Assembly (NCBI GenBank): GCA_016288635.1
Contig: JAEEKZ010000047.1
Coordinates: forward strand, 1-56,927
DNA length: 56,927 bases
Reading direction: 5' to 3'
DNA from: Caryophanales bacterium
GTDB taxonomy: Bacteria > Bacillota_I > Bacilli_A > RF39 > UBA660
A model generated the notes under the pieces. That model worked only from the letters and a program-made list of their open reading frames with translations, had not been told where the DNA came from and did no database searches. Position numbers and translations under genes: made by a program. Within the stretch, counting starts at the first letter, position 1; the number at the start of each line of letters is the position of its first letter. Of this stretch, positions 1,475-5,800 are shown in pieces.

Positions 1475-2890
<1,416 letters not shown>

Positions 2891-2900
2891 TCACAAAGAA

Positions 2901-2929
2901 ATTATAACATTTAAAAGTGGACAAAACAA
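2901..2929 (-). promoter_or_regulatory. tgt promoter
   Basis: Minus strand: -35 TTGTTT (2929-2924), 17-bp spacer, -10 TATAAT (2906-2901). Transcription would start near 2894, about ten bases before the tgt ATG. The -35 abuts the -35 of the opposite promoter. Confidence 0.75.
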
Positions 2930-2946
2930 CTTTATTATGCTATTAT
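2918..2946 (+). promoter_or_regulatory. Promoter of putative small RNA
   Basis: Plus strand: -35 TGGACA (2918-2923), exactly 17 bp, -10 TATTAT (2941-2946) with an upstream TG (extended -10 TGCTATTAT). It points away from tgt into a region without an open frame, which ends in a plus-strand terminator. Confidence 0.7.
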
Positions 2947-2951
2947 TAGCT

Positions 2952-3041
2952 TGCCGGGAAGCAATTCCGTCAGGCAAGATGCGAGCTATATTTATTATAG
3001 TTTTGTAGCATGAGGGCAACGATATTGCCCTCACTTTTTTT
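2952..3041 (+). ncRNA. Putative ~90-nt small RNA, family unknown
   Basis: The plus strand between tgt and dus has a promoter, two hairpins and a terminator but no open frame. The 5' hairpin has outer arms CTTGCC (2951-2956) and GGCAAG (2973-2978). Inside it a GGAA/TTCC stem closes a GCAA tetraloop. A short A/T-rich linker follows, then the terminator stem TGAGGGCAA/TTGCCCTCA (3011-3033, loop CGATA) and seven T ending at 3041. It is clearly more G+C-rich than its surroundings. It does not match what I know of SRP RNA, 6S, tmRNA or the preQ1 riboswitches. It could act in trans, or its transcription could interfere with tgt. Confidence 0.6.
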
Positions 3042-3043
3042 GC

Positions 3044-3072
3044 AAAAAAATAATAAGTATATTTTACTTATT
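3044..3072 (-). terminator. dus terminator
   Basis: Minus-strand hairpin AATAAGTA / TACTTATT with a 5-base loop, then A and seven T. The dus stop codon (3066-3064) is inside the hairpin. Confidence 0.8.
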
Positions 3073-4044
3073 ACTTATAGATTCAAAATATTCATTAATT
3101 ATATTTAAGTACTCTTCCCTATTATTAGCATGACATAATTTAACCTTTGTCTCTTTAGCATTAGGAAGCCCTTTTAAATAATACATAAGCATACTTCTAA
3201 GTTCTAATGTTGCTTCAACCTGTGATTTATCGCTATATAAATAATCCATATGCTGAACCATCATATTATGAACGTCCTCAATTGAATGTGATGATGGTTT
3301 TTTACCATCTAAATATTCTACTGTTTCTTTAATTAACCACGGATTACCAAGTATTCCCCTACCAATCATTACCGAAGTACATCCTGTTTCATCAATCATT
3401 CTTTTAGCATCTTGATATGTTACTATATCACCATTTCCAATTACTGGAATACTAACATTATCCACAACTTCTTTAATAATACCCCAATCGGCCTTACCGG
3501 AATAGCCTTGTGATCTAGTTCTAGCGTGAATAGCTATAGCACTAGCTCCATTCTTTTCAATTATTTTAGCTACCTCTACAGCATTAATACTTTTTTCATC
3601 CCATCCACTTCTTATTTTAACTGTAACAGGACAACTAACACTTTTTACAACAGCTTTAACTATTTTACCAATCTTTTCTGGATCCTTTAATAAAGCTGAA
3701 CCAGCTTGTGCTCTAAGAGCAACTTTGGGAACCGGACAGCCCATATTAATATCAATAATATCAGGATGCATGTTTTCTTCAACTAGCTTAGCTGCTTTTA
3801 CAAAATCATCTACATCCGAACCAAATATTTGTTGAGAAATTGGCCTTTCCATCTCATCCATTTTTAGCAAATCAAAAGTTTTCTTACTACCATATACTAA
3901 AGCTTTATCAGAAACCATTTCAGCTACAACTAAAGCAGCACCCATTTCCTTACATATCTTACGATAAGAAGTATTAGTTACTCCAGCCATTGGAGCAACA
4001 ACAACTTGGTTTTTTAGTTTAACATTACCAATTTTCCATTCCAT
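3064..4044 (-). CDS. dus: tRNA-dihydrouridine synthase (DusB type)
   Basis: A 326-residue FMN- and NADPH-dependent enzyme that reduces specific uridines of tRNA. It begins with the TIM-barrel motif VVAPMAGVTNTSYR. It carries the catalytic cysteine in DINMGCPVPKV (near residue 103), the HARTRSQGYSG motif with FMN-contacting His/Arg, and phosphate-binding VIGNGDI and MIGRGILGNPW. A helical tRNA-binding domain fills about 245-326. The length is typical. SD GGTGA lies five bases before the ATG, and its own terminator overlaps its stop, so it is probably monocistronic. The exact target position cannot be read from sequence. Confidence 0.93.
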   Translation of the reverse strand: MEWKIGNVKLKNQVVVAPMAGVTNTSYRKICKEMGAALVVAEMVSDKALVYGSKKTFDLLKMDEMERPISQQIFGSDVDDFVKAAKLVEENMHPDIIDINMGCPVPKVALRAQAGSALLKDPEKIGKIVKAVVKSVSCPVTVKIRSGWDEKSINAVEVAKIIEKNGASAIAIHARTRSQGYSGKADWGIIKEVVDNVSIPVIGNGDIVTYQDAKRMIDETGCTSVMIGRGILGNPWLIKETVEYLDGKKPSSHSIEDVHNMMVQHMDYLYSDKSQVEATLELRSMLMYYLKGLPNAKETKVKLCHANNREEYLNIINEYFESISNK

Positions 4045-4081: not shown

Positions 4082-4108
4082 AAAAAAAGAATATCAAATA
4101 ATATTCTT
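4082..4108 (-). terminator. pduL terminator
   Basis: Minus-strand hairpin AAGAATAT / ATATTCTT with a 6-base loop and seven T, abutting the stop codon. It closes the rmuC-to-pduL unit. Confidence 0.8.
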
Positions 4109-4668
4109 TAATATTCTAAATCTATTATATCTCCAGAATTAAGTGCAAAAGCTGCAGCTTCATCTGTATCAATATGTGTTTCAAAGAAACCATCATCACT
4201 TACTTTAAACACAGCATTTAATGTTCCTCCTTTTATACCAGGAACTTTTAATGTACATGGCTGTTTATCCTTAATTCCGAGTTCAGCTGCTTCTTTTGTA
4301 TTCATATGAACATGTCTATGAGCAATAATACATCCTTCAATAGTAATTTCTGCTTTTGGTGTAACTAAAGTGATTTTTTCACTATTAGCAACATCTCCAC
4401 TATCTCTAACTGGTGGATTTAAGCCAAATTTTCTAGCATCCGTTTTAGATATTTCAATTTGATTATATTTTCTAAATGGTCCTAATATTCTAACATTAGG
4501 TATTTCTGTCTTTTCTGTTTTCAAAGTTAATGTTTGATTACTAGCAAATTGACCAATTTGATTTAAATCGTTCTTCTTAGTTAATTCCTCATCAAATAAT
4601 AACTTATATGTTTCTTCTGTTAAATGAACATGTCTATTACTAACCCCAACTGATACTTTTGTTTCCAT
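4108..4668 (-). CDS. pduL: Phosphate propanoyl/acetyltransferase, PduL family
   Basis: A 186-residue enzyme that moves an acyl group between CoA and phosphate (acetyl-CoA to acetyl phosphate, or the propionyl equivalent). Two zinc-binding halves are visible: VSVGVSNRHVHLTEE near the N-terminus and CIIAHRHVHMNTKEA near residues 113-128. The ARKFGLNPPVRDSGD and VPGIKGGTLNAVF segments are typical. There is no microcompartment-targeting extension and no microcompartment gene nearby, so it probably serves acetate fermentation as a Pta substitute, with acetate kinase elsewhere. It is the last gene of a tight unit, 11 bases after the degenerate phosphatase, with SD AAAGGAG. Confidence 0.92.
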   Translation of the reverse strand: METKVSVGVSNRHVHLTEETYKLLFDEELTKKNDLNQIGQFASNQTLTLKTEKTEIPNVRILGPFRKYNQIEISKTDARKFGLNPPVRDSGDVANSEKITLVTPKAEITIEGCIIAHRHVHMNTKEAAELGIKDKQPCTLKVPGIKGGTLNAVFKVSDDGFFETHIDTDEAAAFALNSGDIIDLEY

Positions 4669-5300: not shown

Positions 5301-5800
5301 TTTACTAAACCTCCAATTATACCAAACGAAATAATATACATTATGATACTAGCTAGCACTAATCCTAAAGCAATAGATAAGAAAGCTTTCTTTTTATCCA
5401 TATCTAGGACTGACGCAATTAAAGCTCCAGTCCAAGCCCCAGTAACAGGAAGAGGAATAGCAACAAATATTGCTAAACCTATATATTGTAGTCTTTCAAT
5501 TGAGTCTTTTCTTTTATCAGCTTTTTTTAAACACCATTCAACGACTTTAGACATAAATTTTCTTTTCTTTAACCAGTCAAATAATGGCATTATGAAAGCT
5601 AAAATAAATGGTATAGGTAATAAATTACCTAAATAGCAAATTATAATACTTGGTATTGGTTTTAAGCCGAGTAATGATGCTGCAATTAAGCCGCCTCTTA
5701 ATTCAAGAATAGGCATCATTGAAATAATAAATGTAATTACATACCTGTTTTTAATAAAAGCTAGTACACCAATTAACCATTTAGCTAACTTTTCTGCCAT
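5297..5800 (-). CDS. Small multi-drug export-like membrane protein (COG2426)
   Basis: A 167-residue integral membrane protein. Family features are the ELRGGLIAA motif near residues 28-36, a hydrophobic helix with GNLLPIPFILAF, the cytoplasmic loop WLKKRKFM, and the re-entrant-like FVAIPLPVTGAWTGALIAS, then a last helix near 143-163. The COG2426 family is named for small multidrug export, but transport has not been firmly established for most members. It begins one base after the rmuC stop and overlaps the next gene by ATGA, so three neighbours are expressed together. Confidence 0.8.
   Translation of the reverse strand: MAEKLAKWLIGVLAFIKNRYVITFIISMMPILELRGGLIAASLLGLKPIPSIIICYLGNLLPIPFILAFIMPLFDWLKKRKFMSKVVEWCLKKADKRKDSIERLQYIGLAIFVAIPLPVTGAWTGALIASVLDMDKKKAFLSIALGLVLASIIMYIISFGIIGGLVK

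Follow-up and report, generated by a model that had tools for sequence, protein, structure and literature searches.

The gap between tgt and dusB in the DNA studied here appears to hold a real, lineage-restricted and non-coding unit of 89-97 nt, which looks like a captured promoter followed by new sequence and would probably give rise to a small RNA that competes with tgt at the promoter. This is the explanation that we prefer, and we rate its chances as about even. RNA polymerase would start at a plus-strand promoter, pass through two hairpins, the 5' one G+C-rich and the middle one weak, and stop at a GC-rich terminator; owing to the overlap with the tgt promoter, the RNA would be expected at times when tgt is not transcribed. 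The DNA itself presents the promoter, the terminator, the overlap, a similarity of the promoter to those of relatives, a body with no detected relatives and an unusual neighbourhood, and from these features we infer transcription, its start site, the exclusion in the cell, the origin of the junction and a function at the RNA level. If transcribed, the unit would offer a clean example of the birth of a small RNA gene, in which the promoter stays beside tgt while its product differs, being a protein-coding message in some relatives and a short, terminated RNA in the window.

The locus and its two promoters

The window, that is the whole stretch of 56,927 nt that was analysed, is one contig of a 1.14-Mb assembly (63 contigs, 89.5% complete). 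The gap between tgt and dusB comprises 179 nt (2885-3063), and both flanking genes lie on the minus strand. The gene for tRNA-guanine transglycosylase, tgt (1769-2884), was identified by Pfam PF01702 (1.1e-161) and by TIGR00430 above its cut-off, and dusB (3064-4044), coding for a tRNA dihydrouridine synthase, by PF01207 (1.1e-89) and by TIGR00737, also above its cut-off. Around the unit the only open reading frame (ORF) of 90 aa or more that is not on the minus strand is that at 5343-5636, and because the minus strand carries 40 of the 42 ORFs of this size in the window, there is no evident plus-strand gene that a plus-strand terminator at 3011-3041 could serve.

The plus-strand promoter located by the promoter scan (2918-2946) consists of the -35 hexamer TGGACA (2918-2923), a 17-nt spacer and the TG-extended -10 hexamer TATTAT (2941-2946), and scores 10 out of 12 consensus matches. 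On the minus strand, the tgt promoter picked by script (2901-2929) has the -35 hexamer TTGTTT (2929-2924), likewise a 17-nt spacer, and the TG-extended -10 hexamer TATAAT (2906-2901). The two -35 hexamers abut, and 12 bp are common to both promoters, in agreement with the preliminary description, which had reported an extended promoter of this composition whose -35 element directly adjoins that of tgt. Because of the 12-bp overlap, a polymerase bound at one promoter should block the other, and synthesis of the RNA and of tgt should thus be mutually exclusive. The predicted start sites of tgt and of the plus-strand transcript are 59 bp apart. A second TATTAT, at 2933-2938, could serve as an alternative plus-strand -10 (9 out of 12 matches), in which case transcription would start at approximately 2945. 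A small inverted repeat (AAAGT/ACTTT, 2914-2933), noticed by eye, spans both -35 elements; it may be an operator, although a repeat of this length could also arise by chance.

Terminator, hairpins and extent of the predicted RNA

From the positions of the promoter and the terminator, the predicted small RNA would extend from 2953 to 3041 on the plus strand (89 nt) if transcription begins at the usual distance of 7 nt from the -10 hexamer, and would be 97 nt long, starting at 2945, if the alternative -10 is used; its 3' end is expected at 3033-3041. Its G+C content is 43%, compared with 28.8% for the window. The intrinsic terminator (3011-3041, plus strand) was located by scan and has a 9-bp stem and a 5-nt loop followed by a C and seven T (3035-3041); the GC-rich hairpin proper (3011-3033) reads TGAGGGCAA-CGATA-TTGCCCTCA. 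On the minus strand a likely dusB terminator was recognized by eye at 3044-3072, with an A+T-only hairpin (3072-3052) that crosses the dusB stop codon and is too A+T-rich for the terminator scan, and with seven T at 3050-3044. The RNA unit and dusB seem to end face to face with opposed terminators, that of the RNA standing back to back with the A+T-rich one of dusB.

The 5' hairpin (2949-2978, plus strand) has a minimum-energy form at 2949-2975 and an alternative pairing, seen by eye, that reaches 2978. Its folding z score is -2.6 (2948-2980), with 4 of 200 shuffles as good. A start at 2953 would cut the left arm of this hairpin, and only the form with the GCAA loop (2953-2975) is complete in the 89-nt RNA, where it is also the minimum-energy form; a start at about 2945 would keep the whole hairpin, and a form with an AGCAA loop then wins. 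Downstream follows an A+T-rich middle hairpin (2979-3011, plus strand; z -1.9 for 2979-3010, 10 of 200 shuffles as good). It contains a nine-codon frame, MRAIFIIVL, running from the ATG at 2980 to the TAG at 3009, which by eye is the longest ATG frame inside the unit. No plus-strand ORF of at least 30 aa lies wholly inside the unit, and a 32-aa frame that starts at 3010, in the terminator, exits from it. Taken together, the features listed before for this gap, a plus-strand unit of about 90 nt with a strong terminator and no open frame, were all found; of the GC-rich double hairpin that had been described as well, the hairpin with the GCAA loop is the minimum-energy form if transcription starts at 2953, but it gives way to the AGCAA-loop form if the start is at 2945.

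The folding z score of the whole RNA is -4.9 (2945-3041) or -3.9 (2953-3041). With the terminator removed it is -2.2 for the longer form and -1.3 for the shorter, values that were equalled or bettered by 9 and 18 of 200 shuffles, respectively. Most of the folding signal therefore comes from the terminator, and the upstream hairpins by themselves constitute modest evidence.

Searches for homologues of the RNA body

A covariance model was built from the single window sequence, entered twice, and used to search 386 genomes of the family and 385 of the order, two samples that overlap and that both include the genome of the window. With stricter Infernal filters and at most ten candidates scored per genome, the family search returned the unit itself, a 19.2-bit match on the other strand overlapping the unit, and a match to the terminator only in one genome (G155, 24.8 bits), whereas the order search returned only the unit itself. 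At 100 of the 109 relatives' tgt loci the same model gave a single match of 15.3 bits (E 1.4). The possibility that a neighbourhood with dusB is common to relatives was rejected: a dusB search covered 145 genomes, 30 loci were examined, and neither the unit nor the RNA body was found at any of the 29 that came from relatives. Two exact patterns of the unit were absent from viral contigs, and DNA searches in plasmids and in phages had no hit up to an E value of 0.1. DNA similarity was also considered as a guide to homologues and discarded, as the matches in 6 of 97 relatives and in 34 of the 386 family genomes (the window's own included) were, apart from that own genome, only short A+T-rich stretches; none of the loci collected in this way (L003-L032) held tgt. 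No genome of the same genus other than the window's own was present among the 376 listed of the 386 family genomes, and the nearest tgt in named records is 82% identical.

The reach of such searches was judged by two controls. Single SRP RNA sequences from three genomes, used as nhmmer queries, each retrieved the other five of six SRP loci (weakest E 0.0029), with the reservation that the six were the best-scoring ones and four came from the window's own family, so that this control leans to easy cases. When the window RNA was mutated in silico, nhmmer (not the covariance model) found 30 of 30 copies at 30% substitutions, 26 of 30 at 35% and 16 of 30 at 40%, in a simulation free of insertions and deletions. 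With these controls, and with no homologue detected in the genomes searched, the RNA is either restricted to its lineage or changing much faster than SRP RNA. The covariance analysis suggested earlier, which looked to compensatory changes in the stems, accordingly gave no support from conservation: as the 386 family and 385 order genomes yielded no homologue of the RNA body, there is nothing in which such changes could appear. Lack of conservation is one of the two observations that, taken together, the preliminary description would have counted against the unit, the other being the lack of a plus-strand transcript.

Genes and promoters divergent from tgt in relatives

The gene tgt was found in 356 of the 386 family genomes. 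Its upstream region was compared at 109 loci of relatives, 29 from the family-genome search and 80 from named records, some contigs being present twice; removal of loci identical in the first 100 bases upstream of tgt left 85 distinct ones. By a simple ORF rule, the ORF upstream of tgt is divergent at 39 of the 85 and on the tgt strand at 38; at 6 neither was found (four of these six, L038, L057, L066 and L091, show shorter divergent frames of 48-59 aa), while 2 end at a contig edge. Several of the same-strand upstream ORFs look, by eye, like queA. The back-to-back layout noted in the preliminary description is real as far as the overlap of the promoters is concerned, but it is not peculiar to an RNA gene, since a protein gene is divergent from tgt at the 39 loci mentioned. 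What is new is what now stands behind the tgt-divergent promoter; the layout of the promoter pair itself serves proteins in many relatives.

Clustering of the 39 divergent ORFs gave family B (23 members), family A (9 members, small membrane-like proteins), a cluster of three and four singletons. A gene of family A or B is divergent from tgt at 32 of the 85 distinct loci (B, L063 2466-2903 and 22 others; A, L034, L067 and 7 others). The partner proteins that were examined are without match in the curated libraries searched (Pfam for one member each of A and B, NCBIfam for seven members of B). The tgt-divergent arrangement appears to recur in this bacterial family, and the partner proteins may bear on the control of queuosine modification.

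The promoter region of the window (2885-2948) aligns beyond chance with 8 of the 39 divergent regions (no more than 3 of 300 shuffles reached the same quality; z up to 6.1, median of the 39 1.3), and the same test applied to the same-strand upstream regions gave 1 of 38 (median z 0.0). Five of the eight aligning loci belong to family A, two to family B and one to neither. The similarity starts at 2890-2899 and ends at 2926-2945, except at L087, where it ends at 2953. As judged by a promoter picker with a simple score, which for L034, L035 and L101 chose another plus promoter than the alignment shows, the start sites are 55-57 bp apart in 11 of the 39 divergent relatives and 26 to 128 bp apart in the other 28. 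At nine family B loci the predicted start site is exactly 55 bp from that of tgt.

These comparisons suggest that the promoter pair was probably inherited. We regard this as likely rather than proven, because the alignment of the promoter DNA is no better than chance in 31 of the 39 divergent relatives, two of the eight aligning loci (L034 and L035) are nearly the same sequence, and tgt's own promoter contributes part of the similarity. The sequence after the -10 hexamer appears, in contrast to the promoter, to be new as far as the searches reached. Since this sequence matches nothing found and dusB is now the next gene, the unit looks like a captured promoter: a tgt-divergent promoter, which drives protein genes in some relatives, would have been joined to new sequence at a rearrangement junction. 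dusB was seen in the fetched flank (up to 1.5 or 3 kb) of relatives' tgt at none of the 109 loci.

In none of the 85 relatives did the scan rule detect a terminator on the plus strand within 300 nt upstream of tgt. A terminator on this strand (stem of at least 6 bp with at least 3 GC pairs) is present near the end of 8 of the 39 divergent genes, but inheritance of the window's terminator from such a gene was rejected, as by eye none of the eight resembles it.

Role of the transcript

The likeliest role of the released RNA would be that of a small regulatory RNA acting in trans; this role is favoured because the G+C-rich structured 5' part is unnecessary for mere insulation. Close to this reading stands another, possible though less probable, in which the transcript is a by-product: the promoter would be a leftover or serve to restrain tgt, the terminator would guard dusB from antisense transcription, and the RNA would be inert. 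It is close because nothing points to selection on the RNA and because the predicted pairing with targets is no better than that of shuffles (172 of 200 shuffled RNAs paired as well as segment 2953-3010 with the 5' ends of genes, those of the window only). That relatives use a promoter pair like this one for protein genes, and that the RNA body is without a homologue, is also what would be expected of a by-product. The same holds for the near absence of the partner proteins from the genome of the window, where the only match to family A was weak (E 0.011, within a 320-aa frame) and family B gave none. The absence of family B says little, however, and is ordinary, because 56 of 59 other genomes are also without it (it was found in the other three, in G007 at 3.6e-45).

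Two further findings argue against the by-product. Profiles of three protein clusters, run against the gap translated in all six frames, gave no match, the best score being 1.7 bits on the other strand; a remnant of the relatives' protein gene was for this reason rejected as a candidate, although by eye MRAIFIIVL resembles MNYIFIIS of L034. In addition, the 34-nt block 2953-2986 is 62% G+C, a value that only 63 of the 56,894 positions in the window attain, grouped in six places (top 0.11%). An inert transcript would have no need of such a 5' block, and decay in a genome of 28.8% G+C would not be expected to produce one.

Comparison with chance

In dinucleotide shuffles of the gap (2885-3063), a terminator as good as the observed one occurred in a fraction of 0.0001 and an extended promoter as good in a fraction of 0.0027; the two together occurred in none of 20,000 shuffles, a figure to be taken as a guide, since the cut-offs were chosen after the feature had been seen. 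On both strands of the whole window there are two terminators of such quality, and the unit described here is the sole combination of promoter and terminator. These values, together with the alignment of the promoter DNA beyond chance with 8 of the 39 relatives' promoter regions, make it improbable that the unit is untranscribed and that its promoter and terminator are coincidences in A+T-rich junction DNA. What speaks for coincidence is that simple consensus scans over-predict: a looser scan of 2600-3400 gave 7 promoter-like sites against a shuffle mean of 4.6, and 1 terminator against a mean of 0.4.

More speculative is a role in which the RNA, arisen de novo, couples the two tRNA-modification genes, its start shutting off tgt and its read-through running antisense into dusB, so that both queuosine and dihydrouridine would be lowered; we consider this improbable. 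Similarly improbable is the idea that the unit is what remains of an attenuator or leader after loss of the gene that it regulated, with MRAIFIIVL as leader frame in the hairpin followed by the terminator. The order of the elements (promoter, hairpin, tiny frame, terminator) would suit an attenuator, and two motifs are duplicated in the unit, UUGCC (at 2951 and 3025) and GGCAA (at 2973 and 3015), so the arms could swap partners. However, no plus-strand gene follows, the next gene being dusB on the other strand; the tiny frame has, by eye, no good ribosome-binding site; and no Rfam leader scored above its cut-off.

Comparison with known RNAs and systems

A search of the whole window against Rfam at gathering cut-offs gave no match, and ARAGORN found no tRNA or tmRNA in the window. 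Under relaxed cmscan thresholds the best match to the unit was L20_leader (RF00558), with 19.8 bits against a cut-off of 58.7 bits; it is carried by the likeness of the GC-rich terminator and its T run, and was rejected. The window unit differs from the L20 leader in that no gene lies 3' of it on the plus strand. Nothing credible was thus obtained at either threshold, which upholds the earlier statement that no known family matches.

That the unit represents a known RNA, such as SRP RNA, which has diverged beyond recognition by Rfam is very improbable. SRP RNA has a comparable length, and 38 of 39 other genomes searched gave a match to RF00169 when the window's own assembly did not, but no SRP match appears in the cmscan results for 2885-3065 even at E = 10, the core of the relatives' SRP RNAs (around GUCAGG, a GGAA loop and AGCAGC; by eye) is missing from the unit, and, with an assembly 89.5% complete and one other genome also without a match, the absence is probably due to an assembly gap.

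The unit resembles the small RNAs sought by sRNAscanner, which are defined by an intergenic promoter and a Rho-independent terminator within 40-350 nt (PMC2916834). Unlike these, it is without a relative of known function, and a promoter similar to its own drives protein genes in relatives. The promoter pair can be likened to divergent promoters with mutual interference (PMC3389743), as two polymerases should compete for the same DNA; the systems treated in the accessible part of that paper are herpesviruses, eukaryotes and general theory rather than a bacterial pair, and in the window the interference is proposed from the layout of the promoters. Among the titles and abstract openings of the open-licence literature searched, no report of a small RNA divergent from tgt was found.

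Other features near dusB and in the window

Upstream of dusB lies a phosphate propanoyltransferase gene (4108-4668), a homologue of which is near dusB at 8 of the 29 relatives' loci. In one other genome a G+C-rich structured stretch with a hairpin and a T run is located just 3' of dusB (L149 2497-2571); it has no Rfam match, and no copy of it was seen in the window or in the other relatives' loci examined. The gene at 228-1385 of the window encodes a ribokinase-like protein, with all matches below cut-offs, whose long C-terminal tail is rich in Pro, Ala and Gln; the DNA coding for this tail ranks with the most G+C-rich stretches in the window. A tRNA-Asn(GTT), which is a substrate of Tgt, lies 3' of dusB at three relatives' loci (L152 1333-1408, L161 2510-2585 and L163 1309-1384); the three were first picked out by eye and then confirmed by a scan of 5 of the 29 relatives' dusB loci.
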